A stretch of 64,000 nucleotides of DNA from Sneathiella aquimaris (lineage in GTDB: Bacteria > Pseudomonadota > Alphaproteobacteria > Sneathiellales > Sneathiellaceae). The notes below the pieces were generated by a model. That model was not told the origin of the DNA, searched no databases, and saw only the letters and a program-made list of their open reading frames with translations. Below are positions 1,805-6,463 of this stretch, one piece after another; the first letter of the stretch is position 1; each line of letters begins with the position of its first letter. The position numbers and the translations under genes are program-made. Location: positions 3,417,501 through 3,481,500 of the forward strand of contig NZ_CP112881.1 of the NCBI RefSeq assembly GCF_026409565.1, in the 5' to 3' direction.

Positions 1805-2932
1805 CTAAGACAAGTCTGAATAACGGCTCAGATGATAATCTGTGTTCCCGAAAAGCATTTCCAGTGTCGATAAACGCTTGAAGTAATGCCCGATAGAATA
1901 TTCATCAGTCATCCCCATGCCACCATGAAGCTGCACAGATTGCTGACCAATAAACTTGGCCGCCTTACCGATTTGAGCTTTTGTCGCAGAAACAGCCTTC
2001 TTCGTATCCAGATCATATCCCAGATCCAGCTTCATCGCGACCATGTCTGACATGGACTTGGATTGCTCAGCTTCCATATACATATCCACCATGCGATGTT
2101 GAAGAACCTGAAACTTTCCAATTGGTGTTCCAAACTGCTTGCGTGTCTTCAAATACTCATTTGTAATCTCATTAGCTGCCGCCATGGCGCCAACAGCTTC
2201 GGCACATAAGGCACCGATTGCGCGATCTACAATCTTTTCAATTACCGGAAAGGCCTTGCCTTCTTCGCCCAAAAGCGCTTCGGCTTTCACGCCATCAAAG
2301 TGAACATCTGCCGCTCGAAGGCCATCTACGGTGCGATATCCCTGTATGTCCAGCCCTGCAGCTGCTTTATCTACAACAAACAGAGAAATACCGTCAGCGT
2401 CTCGTGAATCTCCGCTGGTTCGCGCCGAAACGATCAACTTATCGGCCGTCGCACCATGATAAACAACGGCTTTATGACCGTTCAGAACATATTCATTTCC
2501 GGATTTCGTCGCGGTTGTTTCAACATCATTGAGATTAAAACGGGATTGTTTTTCAGCATAGGCGAAGGCCAGCATCAACTCACCCTCGATTACCGATGGA
2601 ATGATTGCCTCAATCTGTTCATTGCTTCCAGCTTCAACGACTAAGCCACCGCCCAAAATTACGGTTGAGAAGAAGGGCTCCAAAACCAGTCCGCTGCCCA
2701 TGCTTTCCATCATGATCATGGTTTCAACGGCATTGCCACCAAATCCACCAACATCCTCAGAGAAAGGCATTCCCAACCAGCCGAGTTCCGCCATTGTCTT
2801 CCAGTGTTCGAGGCTGTACCCCAAATCCGTTTCTGCCAACTTCATTCTGGCTTCAGGAGAATAGTTATCCTGCACAAACCGATCGACGCTGTCTTTCAAC
2901 AGGGATTGTTCGTCTGAAAGTTCAAAATCCAT
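1805..2932 (-). CDS. Acyl-CoA dehydrogenase, possibly the non-catalytic partner of a heteromer
   Basis: A 375-residue FAD-dependent acyl-CoA dehydrogenase. The N-terminal helical domain runs to about residue 120, the central beta domain to about 215, and the C-terminal four-helix domain carries the usual RKQFGTPIGKFQVLQHRMVDM segment. The C-terminal G-G-x-N-E-I motif that carries the catalytic glutamate in the neighbouring enzyme is not visible; the corresponding part reads GHYFKRLSTLEMLFG. It is only 12 bases downstream of a 398-residue acyl-CoA dehydrogenase that does have that motif. Paired unlike subunits of this sort form alpha2-beta2 enzymes in steroid side-chain degradation, so a heteromeric enzyme is a reasonable inference. 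Substrate is unknown. Confidence 0.88.
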   Translation of the reverse strand: MDFELSDEQSLLKDSVDRFVQDNYSPEARMKLAETDLGYSLEHWKTMAELGWLGMPFSEDVGGFGGNAVETMIMMESMGSGLVLEPFFSTVILGGGLVVEAGSNEQIEAIIPSVIEGELMLAFAYAEKQSRFNLNDVETTATKSGNEYVLNGHKAVVYHGATADKLIVSARTSGDSRDADGISLFVVDKAAAGLDIQGYRTVDGLRAADVHFDGVKAEALLGEEGKAFPVIEKIVDRAIGALCAEAVGAMAAANEITNEYLKTRKQFGTPIGKFQVLQHRMVDMYMEAEQSKSMSDMVAMKLDLGYDLDTKKAVSATKAQIGKAAKFIGQQSVQLHGGMGMTDEYSIGHYFKRLSTLEMLFGNTDYHLSRYSDLS

Positions 2933-2944
2933 TTTTATTATTCC

Positions 2945-4141
2945 TTATAATCCCAGAACCATTTTAGAGATGATATTTCGTTGAATTTCGTTACTGCCAC
3001 CGTAAATGGAAGCGGCTTTGAGGTAAAGATGTTCTGCCATCGGTCCGGTCGCATAATCCGGACCAATGGGCGCTTCATTAATACCAGCGTAATCGCGCTG
3101 CGCTTCGTAAGGCGCGCCATACATGCCCAAAGACTCGACCAGCAAGTCGGTCAGACGTTGCTGAATTTCAGTGCCTTTGATTTTCAGTAAGGACGGTTCT
3201 GCTGAGAGCTTTTTGCCACTTTCCAGCATGGAGATCATTCGAAGTTCCGTATATTCCAATGCCATCAGATCTATTTCGATCTGATTGAGCTTACGCATAA
3301 AGTCCCGGTCTTCTTCCAGATAACCGCCATTCACACGCTCATTTTTTGCAATTTGGCGTAACCGCGCAATTTTCCGTTTTGATTGGGCGACCCGGGCGAT
3401 TGTTGTCCGTTCGTTGCCCAGCAGGAATTTAGCATAGGTCCAGCCCTTGTTTTCTTCTCCGATCCGGTTTTTCACAGGCACACGAACATCATCAAAAAAG
3501 ACTTCGTTCAATGTATGCTCTTTATCCAGACCGATAATTGGCTTGAGCGTTATACCCGGCGTTTTCATGTCGATTAATAAAAAGGAAATACCTTCCTGTG
3601 CTTTTGCCGAGCTGTCGGTACGCACGAGACAGAAAATCATGTCTGCATATTGCGCGTGCGATGTCCATATTTTCTGGCCGTTGACAATATAGTCATCCCC
3701 GTCCCGAACAGCTTTCGTTTGCAACGAGGCCAGATCAGAACCCGATCCCGGCTCCGAATATCCCTGACACCACCAGTCATCAGAGTTCAAAATACGTGGG
3801 AGATAAAAATCTTTTTGCTCTTGATTACCAAAAGTGTAAATCACCGGACCGACCATACTGACACCAAATGGCATTGGCGCCGGGGCAGAAGCCGCCCCCA
3901 TTTCCTGTGCGAATATATATTTCTGGGTCGTCGTCCAACCGGTGCCCCCATATTCAACCGGCCAATTTGGTGCCATCCAGCCCTTTTTATGCAGGATTTT
4001 CTGCCAACGTTGCTGCCCTTCTTTGGTAAAATGAAGTCCGCGATCACATCGATCTTTAACGTCCTCAGGTAGCTGGGTTGCAAAAAATTCTCTGACTTCC
4101 GCCTGAAAGGCTAAATCTTCATCACTGAACGACAAATCCAT
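2945..4141 (-). CDS. Acyl-CoA dehydrogenase
   Basis: A 398-residue acyl-CoA dehydrogenase that introduces the trans-2 double bond into an acyl-CoA and passes electrons from FAD to electron-transferring flavoprotein. Visible family features are YSEPGSGSDLAS in the FAD/substrate region (about residue 130), the segment [19 protein letters not shown], and the C-terminal YGGSNEIQRN, whose glutamate is the expected catalytic base. A good ribosome binding site (GGAGG) precedes the ATG at 4141. It is followed after 12 bases by a second, unlike acyl-CoA dehydrogenase lacking the last motif. Substrate cannot be read from sequence; multi-ring or branched acyl chains are possible. Confidence 0.92.
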   Translation of the reverse strand: MDLSFSDEDLAFQAEVREFFATQLPEDVKDRCDRGLHFTKEGQQRWQKILHKKGWMAPNWPVEYGGTGWTTTQKYIFAQEMGAASAPAPMPFGVSMVGPVIYTFGNQEQKDFYLPRILNSDDWWCQGYSEPGSGSDLASLQTKAVRDGDDYIVNGQKIWTSHAQYADMIFCLVRTDSSAKAQEGISFLLIDMKTPGITLKPIIGLDKEHTLNEVFFDDVRVPVKNRIGEENKGWTYAKFLLGNERTTIARVAQSKRKIARLRQIAKNERVNGGYLEEDRDFMRKLNQIEIDLMALEYTELRMISMLESGKKLSAEPSLLKIKGTEIQQRLTDLLVESLGMYGAPYEAQRDYAGINEAPIGPDYATGPMAEHLYLKAASIYGGSNEIQRNIISKMVLGL

Positions 4142-4292: not shown

Positions 4293-5879
4293 TTATTCCA
4301 GAACCGAAAATCTTGTATTTCCGTCCCGTTCGACCTGCGGGACCAACGCGACTTCCCAATCCAGATATTCCTGCATTCTTTGGCGAATCTTTTCCCGGTT
4401 GTCATAGGGCTTATACCACAGATCATCCTGTTTACTCAGCAGCCGCGTATCCCCTTCTTCCGTTGGCAGCCCCGCTTGCCGCCACCCTTCATTACCGCCC
4501 GTCAACACATGAACAATGGCAAGCGGCCTTGCCGCCTTCACATCTCTAACAGCCAAATGTGCCAACCGTTCATCGTCAGCGGTAATCACAATATATCCAA
4601 CGAGAGGCAGGAAATTCAGATCCTCTGCAATCCGGGACCGAATAATCCAATAAGACCCCGGTATATGGGATTTTCGATAGGCAAGAGAATTCGCAAGGTC
4701 AAGAACCGCGGCGGCCTCACCAGATGCGTTGACAGCATCTAATTCCAACGGTGTTATATCCCCGCGCTGTGCCGTCTGGTCATCCCTGCCTGAGGCCAGT
4801 TCAAACCCCCTTAAATCGGTTAGAACAAAAACGTTCGACCATCCGATTTGTTTAAGCCAGGAAGCACTCATCCAGGCGCGTACTTCCCTGTCATCCACCA
4901 AGACCAAATGAGCGTTTTTAACGGCCACATATTCATCGGTCGCCTGAACAAGCTGACCGCCCGGCGAAAAGTGACTGCCAGGAATATGCCCCGCCGCAAA
5001 GTCCTCAATCGTCCGCACATCCAGCACAAACAGACTGATTTCCTCTGCTTGCCTTTGCAACGCTAAAAGGCCATCTTTTTCCAACAATTCAACGCCTGCC
5101 TTCACCCCGACGGTACGGGCGGCCCGCACGCTGCGGTCCAGATTTTCACGGGATGGTTCAGGGGCAATGGTGTTTGCATGATTGGCAAGGTTGTGGCCTG
5201 CCAGGTACCACCCCATTGTACCGTCTTTAAGCGCCATAACCGGATTTTTAATCCCGGCGTTAATCAAAGACTGCGCCCCAATAATACTGCGTGTCCTGCC
5301 CGCGCAATTAACAACAATAGTCGTCTTTTCGTCCGTTACCGTTTCAAAAACCCGGTGAACCAGTTCGGCGCCGGGCATATCAATCGCACCCGGAATGCTC
5401 ATCCGGTGATATTCATCAAACGGACGACTATCAAACACGACGATATTTTCGTCCGCCTCCAATCGCTGTTTCAACTCATCGGCTGTAATATGCGGCGTTC
5501 CGCAGTGATGTTCGACAAATTCACCAAAGGCTTTGCTGGGAACATTCACACCCGAAAAAATTTCAAACCCTGCGCCATGCCAACCAAGAATGCCACCGTC
5601 CAGAATTGACAAACTGGTGAATCCCATTTCTGCCAACGTCTGGGCTGCCCGGACGGAAAGCCCGTCCCCATCCCCCTGATCAATCAAACAGATGTCTACA
5701 GATTTGCGAGGCAGCTTTCGTTCAGCCTCCAATTCAAGCCGGCTAAGCGGCATTGAGGTTGCCCATAAAGGGTGCCCCTGTGCATAAACGCCTTGTTCCC
5801 GGACATCCAAAAAAGCAACTTCCGCATCGGAGGCAAGCTTTTGCTGCATCTGGGCGGGGGAGATTGTCTCAAATGACAC
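4293..5879 (-). CDS. Four-domain rhodanese-like sulfurtransferase with one active-site cysteine
   Basis: A 528-residue protein that reads as four rhodanese-like domains in tandem, roughly residues 1-108, 128-235, 258-370 and 380-475. Rhodaneses carry sulfane sulfur on a catalytic cysteine. Only domain 2 has the active-site loop (CAGRTRS, Cys192). The matching places in domains 1, 3 and 4 read DQGDGDG, DDREVRA and ADDERLA, without cysteine, so those domains are probably structural. The start is a GTG sharing its G with the TAG stop of the cysteine dioxygenase gene, which implies translational coupling. The pairing suggests handling of the sulfur released in thiol oxidation, possibly of persulfide or sulfite; the exact reaction is not known. 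Confidence 0.88.
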   Translation of the reverse strand: MSFETISPAQMQQKLASDAEVAFLDVREQGVYAQGHPLWATSMPLSRLELEAERKLPRKSVDICLIDQGDGDGLSVRAAQTLAEMGFTSLSILDGGILGWHGAGFEIFSGVNVPSKAFGEFVEHHCGTPHITADELKQRLEADENIVVFDSRPFDEYHRMSIPGAIDMPGAELVHRVFETVTDEKTTIVVNCAGRTRSIIGAQSLINAGIKNPVMALKDGTMGWYLAGHNLANHANTIAPEPSRENLDRSVRAARTVGVKAGVELLEKDGLLALQRQAEEISLFVLDVRTIEDFAAGHIPGSHFSPGGQLVQATDEYVAVKNAHLVLVDDREVRAWMSASWLKQIGWSNVFVLTDLRGFELASGRDDQTAQRGDITPLELDAVNASGEAAAVLDLANSLAYRKSHIPGSYWIIRSRIAEDLNFLPLVGYIVITADDERLAHLAVRDVKAARPLAIVHVLTGGNEGWRQAGLPTEEGDTRLLSKQDDLWYKPYDNREKIRQRMQEYLDWEVALVPQVERDGNTRFSVLE

Positions 5880-6463
5880 TATCGCGCCTCTCTTATGTCA
5901 GTATGTGCGGGAAAGACACGCCATTCAGCCGCGGGCTCACTCCAATAATTACGGTTCGGCAATTGCTCCAGCGCCAAACCGTACATATGAAAATTGAGAA
6001 CAGGGTCACCGTCGGCAATATGAATGCTGTGCACATCCTCTGCATGAAACGTAACACCTGTTCCGGCTTCGACGATCTGGCGGTCTTTCAATTCAACACC
6101 ATCTTCTCTTTTAAGGTAAAACCGGTTTTCCTCCTGACCAGTTATACCGACGATAACGGCCCAGGTCGTATGATCATGCGGTGGCGCGTTCACCTCTCCA
6201 TTTGCAACATTCGCATATAGGGCAAAGCGATGATCCGGGTCTTCTGACAAACGATACAAACAGCTTCGTCTTTTACTGTCTGGTTCCGGTGGCGGAAAGG
6301 CCTCCAGATTGAAAAGGTCTGTTTCCGAGGCCAGTTCAATCAGTTCGTTTCGTATGAAATCCAGCTTTGCCTGATCCGGTATTGTGGTTCCGATCTTGTC
6401 TCTGATCGCGTCAACGCTGCGTTTTATTCTCGTTCTTCGTTGCTCTGTAGTTGCCACAGTCAC
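5879..6463 (-). CDS. Cysteine dioxygenase-like cupin (thiol dioxygenase)
   Basis: A 194-residue protein of the cysteine dioxygenase family, non-heme iron enzymes that add O2 to a small thiol to give a sulfinate. The iron-binding histidines are visible as PPHDHTTW (His96 and His98) and in DVHSIHI (His145, or less likely His148). The bacterial family includes enzymes for cysteine and for 3-mercaptopropionate, and sequence alone does not separate them here. It is the first gene of a two-gene operon with the rhodanese that overlaps its stop codon, so both products very likely act on the same sulfur pathway. Confidence 0.88.
   Translation of the reverse strand: MTVATTEQRRTRIKRSVDAIRDKIGTTIPDQAKLDFIRNELIELASETDLFNLEAFPPPEPDSKRRSCLYRLSEDPDHRFALYANVANGEVNAPPHDHTTWAVIVGITGQEENRFYLKREDGVELKDRQIVEAGTGVTFHAEDVHSIHIADGDPVLNFHMYGLALEQLPNRNYWSEPAAEWRVFPAHTDIREAR

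Follow-up and report, generated by a model that had tools for sequence, protein, structure and literature searches.

Introduction

Gene pairs encoding a thiol dioxygenase and a rhodanese are already in print, as 3mdo-tst and as msdo with its rhodanese, and their function is unsettled there. In Pseudomonas protegens CHA0, 3mdo and tst (c14110-c14100; homologues PA2602 and PA2603 in PAO1) seem to form a transcription unit, and the passages on a tst deletion state that extracellular 3-mercaptopropionate was not significantly changed (PMC12947264). The values given at 8 h are 1968 pg per OD for the tst deletion, 1750 for the wild type and 2768 for the 3mdo mutant; the word sulfite is absent from the main text (PMC12947264). 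Variovorax paradoxus B4 and Advenella mimigardefordensis carry a cluster in which the gene for mercaptosuccinate dioxygenase (MSDO) accompanies those for a rhodanese and a cystathionine beta-lyase, as sections of one source describe (PMC5373536).

The arrangement studied here, from Sneathiella aquimaris, is a variant of this published pair type; "the window" below means the whole stretch of DNA analysed, 64,000 nucleotides in length. Like 3mdo-tst, it consists of a thiol dioxygenase followed by a four-domain rhodanese. The Pseudomonas pair differs in that its dioxygenase falls in the clade of 3-mercaptopropionate dioxygenase (3MDO), with Ser at a triad position where the window has Asn, and in that its rhodanese has a second cysteine in domain 4. 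The msdo cluster resembles the window in having a rhodanese gene and in its dioxygenase, the nearest to ours in sequence and fold (8vni). In contrast, the MSDO clade is separate in the tree and has His at the triad position, and no metC-like match was found in the 39 loci L009-L047; in the window the pair is directly flanked by acyl-CoA dehydrogenases and by a protein of 216 aa that matches no Pfam family. A third likeness is to proteins in which a sulfur dioxygenase is joined to a rhodanese. These persulfide dioxygenase-rhodaneses include CstB, Blh and PRF, and they differ from the window pair in acting on a persulfide and in having a metallo-beta-lactamase fold rather than a cupin. A bifunctional sulfur transferase and sulfur dioxygenase has been described in the text of PMC5823870.

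Layout of the locus

Both genes lie on the minus strand, the dioxygenase ORF first and the rhodanese ORF after it. The original prediction had them overlapping through a TAGTG, and this was confirmed, with both ORFs in place and one base in common:

5879-6463, minus strand: thiol dioxygenase gene, cupin fold (194 aa, GTG start; from the ORF list)
5877-5881, minus strand: TAGTG overlap of dioxygenase stop and rhodanese start (read from the sequence)
4293-5879, minus strand: four-domain rhodanese gene (528 aa, GTG start; relative of the solved chain 1yt8)
1805-4141, minus strand: two acyl-CoA dehydrogenase genes, downstream of the rhodanese (below the family cut-off)

A promoter and terminator scan returned 5 promoters against 2.7 (sd 2.1) in shuffles, and 3 terminators against 3.6. 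Within the family to which the window belongs, 24 of 25 genomes carry the rhodanese, and in a phylum sample 39 of 398 genomes have it at E up to 1e-30.

The acyl-CoA dehydrogenase genes are kept in order behind the rhodanese in those Sneathiella-type loci that reach far enough. They are not found there in L023, L024, L025, L031 or the Acidimicrobiia loci, and in L116 an acyl-CoA dehydrogenase gene is 1.8 kb away, with a minus-strand ORF in between. Because they are absent from this place in several loci, we do not count them in the module. As candidates for 3-sulfinopropionyl-CoA desulfinase they were rejected: they score 103.5 and 56.4 bits where the cut-off is 600, and none of 30 matches in the genome passed it. 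The two genes resemble the large and small subunits of pimeloyl-CoA dehydrogenase, below cut-off.

Active-site positions of the rhodanese

Pfam PF00581 matched three significant stretches of the rhodanese protein, and a whole-genome search placed four Pfam rhodanese matches above cut-off within its frame. Among solved chains, 1yt8 comes closest (E 7.9e-133, residues 15-528); we take it to be PA2603, and the similarity to this type of four-domain rhodanese is full-length. When the profile of domain 2 was aligned by HHalign with domains 1, 3 and 4 (E 2.2e-18, 4e-14 and 4.5e-16, respectively), Cys192 fell opposite Asp67, Asp329 and Ala434:

5544-5879, minus strand: rhodanese domain 1, residues 1-112, pseudo-domain with Asp67 at the Cys position (HHalign)
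5184-5507, minus strand: rhodanese domain 2, residues 125-232, catalytic Cys192 in the loop CAGRTR (HHalign)
5304-5306, minus strand: codon of Cys192 (sequence)
4764-5096, minus strand: rhodanese domain 3, residues 262-372, conserved pseudo-domain with the loop D329-D-R-E-V-R334 (HHalign)
4434-4754, minus strand: rhodanese domain 4, residues 376-482, Ala434 at the Cys position (HHalign)

The protein had been predicted to have a single cysteine. This is right for the four active-site positions, but there are three cysteines in all, Cys64, Cys126 and Cys192, and the first two are neither aligned with an active-site position nor generally conserved. The prediction that the other domains are not ordinary active rhodaneses was upheld by the residues at their Cys positions. 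Rhodaneses are recognised by a six-residue loop starting at the catalytic Cys, and in RDL2, with the loop CAKGVR, the terminal Arg is required (relevant passages of PMC8533005). Domain 2 carries such a loop, C192-A-G-R-T-R197, which like that of RDL2 has Cys first and Arg last.

Besides 1yt8 and the window, the 96 rhodaneses that we aligned come from 94 of 97 loci, the three left out being the fragment loci L032, L034 and L035. Cys192 and Arg197 are present in all 96 rows. In domain 3, position 329 is Asp in 95 rows (Glu in one) and position 334 is Arg in 96/96. Position 67 is Asp in 83, Gly in 12 and Ser in 1, and position 434 is more varied (Ser 29, Cys 25, Ala 20, gap 19, other 3). None of the 96 rows has Cys in the column of 67 or of 329; cysteines in the loop stretches of domain 1 (5 rows) and domain 3 (4 rows) are all off the catalytic column. 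Judged by alignment, one of the four domains has a predicted catalytic cysteine, and this pattern is not due to chance. Because Asp329 and Arg334 are so nearly invariant, domain 3 reads as a pseudo-domain conserved at its former active site and not as one in decay.

The loop of domain 4 varies with the dioxygenase partner. It has a Cys in all 20 rows with a 3MDO-type partner (1yt8 counted there on the above assumption) and in 0/30 window-type rows, where 21 have another residue and 9 have no letters. These nine are eight Acidimicrobiia without domain 4 and L031, whose rhodanese has its last part in another frame. A Cys is found there in 1/4 MSDO-type rows and in 6/34 rows without a recognised partner. 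Three-domain rhodaneses occur in Acidimicrobiia and in one alphaproteobacterial genus. Three-domain relatives at L095, L096, L103-L107 and L109, all from one genus with genomes of 6 to 8 Mb, are 410 aa long, have no domain 4 and lack a recognised dioxygenase neighbour. In a rhodanese tree made by a quick method, window-type rhodaneses do not form a single clade, so we do not claim strict co-evolution of the two proteins.

Family of the thiol dioxygenase

The original label, cysteine dioxygenase, was not supported. The nearest solved sequence is that of MSDO (8vni, E 2.8e-30), followed by 6xb9 (3MDO, E 5.7e-6) and 4qma (E 1.4e-4). An AlphaFold2 (AF2) model (pLDDT 94.5, from 29 alignment rows) also matched 8vni best (Z 26.4, rmsd 2.1, 186 residues aligned), ahead of 3MDO-type chains (Z 21.3 to 22.2) and mammalian cysteine dioxygenase (Z 18.9), and the modelled fold places the protein in the thiol dioxygenase (CDO-like cupin) superfamily. 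It had no Pfam match at E up to 10, CDO_I included. A 3MDO-type control (L119) matched CDO_I at 5.6e-7 and an MSDO-type control (L122) did not, so this test separates the families only in part.

Histidines at the three iron-ligand positions (His96, His98 and His145) are present in all 88 rows of a dioxygenase alignment, as are Trp101, Glu111, His159 and Tyr161, and Arg171 is found in all 86 rows with a letter there. Cysteine dioxygenase has a Cys for the Cys-Tyr crosslink, though not universally; the window enzyme has Val103 there. Its triad positions are Asn157-His159-Tyr161, which is not the Ser-His-Tyr motif described for 3MDO along with Arg168 (text of PMC8050391). Position 157 is Asn in 38/38 window-type rows, Ser in 21/21 3MDO-type rows and His in 21/21 rows from dioxygenases fused to a rhodanese (see below). 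The remaining 8 rows, five of the MSDO clade and those of L099, L101 and L146, all have His.

A careful tree of 62 rows, with a long-branch warning for L024, L122 and L031, recovered a window clade of 31 rows (99/91) that includes Acidimicrobiia, with the three fusions then known as its sister (94/90). The window did not group with 8vni, which lies in a separate MSDO clade of 5 rows (99/92), and 3MDO is far off (100/100). From sequence comparison we assign the window enzyme to a separate clade of thiol dioxygenases, closest to MSDO and with Asn at the Ser position of the triad, for which "cysteine dioxygenase" is a family-level nickname.

The same genome encodes a second, distant cupin of the thiol-dioxygenase kind (185 aa, L127:1324-1881; C1 near 1701090), and the whole-genome search found no Pfam rhodanese within 35 kb of it. 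A further cupin type stands directly before or after the rhodanese in three loci (L027:5389-5967, L026:2850-3383 and L036:7642-8184), to which we were led by a profile search contaminated with fused rhodanese sequence. By eye, the L027 and L036 proteins share the motif PHDH..SWA.YGQASG, and neither matched a Pfam family; L026 clusters with L036.

Gene pairing and natural fusions

A thiol dioxygenase, counted at 80 bits or more, is on the same stretch as the rhodanese in 59/97 loci, 39 of the 97 having been picked for their likeness to the window. For the phylum sample the figure was 23/44 loci, one with the dioxygenase 1.2 kb away. The other 21 had no recognised dioxygenase on the stretch, flanks being only about 1.5 kb in 29 of the 44 loci, and include all eight three-domain loci fetched from one genus. 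The pair genes are adjacent and mostly overlapping in both Proteobacteria and Acidimicrobiia. Of 31 separate window-type pairs, 26 have a start that shares 1 or 4 bases with the stop, and the other spacings are -11, +2, +2, +12 and +69 (starts inferred from alignment). The same rhodanese family is found with dioxygenases of the 3MDO, MSDO and window types, and for this reason its job seems to follow thiol oxidation generally.

Three single-frame fusions of dioxygenase and rhodanese were present in our first set. Further sampling took in 385 genomes from the same class as the window and, from another class, 250 of the order that includes G220. Twenty of 40 loci retrieved were fused; two of these repeat L071 and L087, and with L097 the fusions come from 21 distinct genomes (that of L149 is incomplete at its end). 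Outside the 21, four further long matches appear as single open frames (G562, G651, G450 and G656), and two that contain a stop (G422 and G920) were not counted as fusions. The fused rhodaneses have Cys at 192 in 21/21 and at 434 in none of the 20 that reach the position. The fused dioxygenases, 21 rows, group as a single clade (SH-aLRT 98) in a larger tree made by a quick method from 88 rows, so a single fusion, spread by descent or transfer, suffices; the window clade had SH-aLRT 94 and was not starred.

Because relatives join the two into one protein, the dioxygenase and the rhodanese very probably act together. Their coupling is strongly supported by the adjacent, mostly overlapping genes and the single-frame fusions, both read from genome sequence, which bear out the expectation of one pathway and make the link stronger than the original prediction could know. 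It is unlikely that the two are co-regulated sulfur-scavenging neighbours without a direct biochemical link: many family members do lack a recognised dioxygenase neighbour, but the start-stop overlaps and the presence of fusions in several families speak against it.

The fusions also bear on the earlier idea that the large rhodanese is a scaffold, binding the dioxygenase and taking sulfur directly from the oxidised thiol. They show that both parts can work tethered, and the loop of pseudo-domain 3 is as conserved as that of the active domain. However, a sulfinate holds no sulfane sulfur that the rhodanese cysteine could take (general chemistry), and the published account of the tst mutant reports no significant change in the thiol (PMC12947264). 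An AF2 model of the L071 fusion was confident for the rhodanese. For the bulk of the dioxygenase (46-192) it fell to pLDDT <50, probably owing to coverage by just three rows, and so gives no view of contact. Direct transfer on a scaffold is, like the enzyme name, not established, and we hold it to be improbable.

The order of action could also be reversed, with the rhodanese upstream making or delivering a persulfide from thiosulfate and a thiol and the dioxygenase oxidising it, as a cupin counterpart of CstB-like enzymes. Such an order has the same domain logic as published dioxygenase-rhodanese proteins, as far as the best 10 of 42 matches describe them, and fusions were found among the sampled genomes. 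The nearest solved relatives are nevertheless thiol and not persulfide dioxygenases, and we give this order little credence.

Neighbouring genes in other loci

Eight Acidimicrobiia loci have a gene of one cluster before the pair, and its member in L044 is an enoyl-CoA hydratase by Pfam. Members of the rhodanese family also adjoin an MSDO-type gene and a metC-like gene. L112 and L113, from the window's genus, hold a second module of an MSDO-type dioxygenase, a divergent four-domain rhodanese and a metC-like gene.

Thirteen plasmid regions were viewed, two of them without annotation. Taurine or sulfonate genes stand beside the rhodanese in three of the 13, one of which has TauD. Others have dioxygenase pairs or no evident sulfonate gene, with a cysteine desulfurase gene nearby in one; most regions without a dioxygenase lack a sulfonate gene. 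On a Ti plasmid of Agrobacterium salinitolerans (L120), genes for sulfonate uptake and a flavin monooxygenase adjoin a family member, and a small cupin gene comes next. On a plasmid of Comamonadaceae bacterium OTU4NAUVB1 (L129), overlapping genes for an acyl-CoA dehydrogenase (108.8 bits against the desulfinase cut-off of 600), a dioxygenase and a rhodanese lie in a row beside ssu genes. The thread through these contexts would be organic sulfur breakdown that releases sulfite.

In L129 the rhodanese is followed, on the other strand, by a short gene annotated as a molybdopterin-binding protein, which touches on whether the rhodanese serves a cofactor such as the molybdenum cofactor of a sulfite-oxidising enzyme. 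A role of this kind was suggested for the rhodanese of V. paradoxus B4 in part of PMC5373536, and in NCBIfam our rhodanese scores best with a MoeB-type model, though at 122.8 it stays far under the cut-off of 449. With no molybdoenzyme among the five window proteins run through Pfam, we regard a cofactor role as very unlikely.

Proposed function of the pair

We propose that the pair is a two-gene organosulfur module. The three-His iron enzyme would use O2 to oxidise the thiol group of a small carboxylated compound, and the resulting sulfinate would fall apart or be desulfinated to sulfite. In the rhodanese, Cys192 of domain 2 would bear sulfane sulfur in persulfide form and pass it to sulfite, yielding the less reactive thiosulfate. 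The pseudo-rhodanese domains 1 and 3 would be kept for structure or for binding a ligand or partner, possibly with contact between the two separate proteins; domain 4 has no cysteine in the window's lineage. Sulfite handling by the Cys192 persulfide after thiol oxidation is our best account, at a probability of roughly 0.4.

Sulfite as the acceptor is suggested by published chemistry and by the gene neighbours. Pathways with MSDO and with 3-sulfinopropionyl-CoA desulfinase release sulfite (sections of PMC5373536), and, of the two directions, that from persulfide and sulfite to thiosulfate is the strongly preferred one (passages of PMC10215317 and PMC8533005). Because 3-mercaptopropionate did not change significantly in the published tst deletion, a downstream role of the rhodanese fits better than a shared catalytic step. 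The silent deletion also counts against the sulfite account, as do the many rhodaneses without a dioxygenase neighbour and the sulfonate genes lacking from most dioxygenase-less plasmid regions.

A bolder reading, possible but rather doubtful, is that the cupin thiol dioxygenase and the one-cysteine chain of pseudo-rhodaneses form a true two-part enzyme, converting organic thiol sulfur to thiosulfate in one assembly. The conserved Asp-Arg pseudo-domains would then be docking or anion-binding sites, the dioxygenase a new Asn-triad subfamily and the whole a cupin counterpart of the metallo-beta-lactamase dioxygenase-rhodaneses.

Implications

The arrangement had been called not well characterised. 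That stands for its mechanism, but the pairing is in print and a solved relative, 1yt8, exists. Among the matches listed in a search of open-licence full texts, titles and abstract beginnings revealed no literature on the fusions or on the function of this pair. With a solved relative of the rhodanese and a published deletion, this widespread pair is now directly testable. The residue at the variable triad position (Ser, His or Asn) differs by clade and marks subfamilies of the dioxygenase, which may prefer different thiols. The natural fusions indicate that both activities belong together, and the pair is relevant to the ways in which bacteria get rid of the sulfite that organic sulfur yields.
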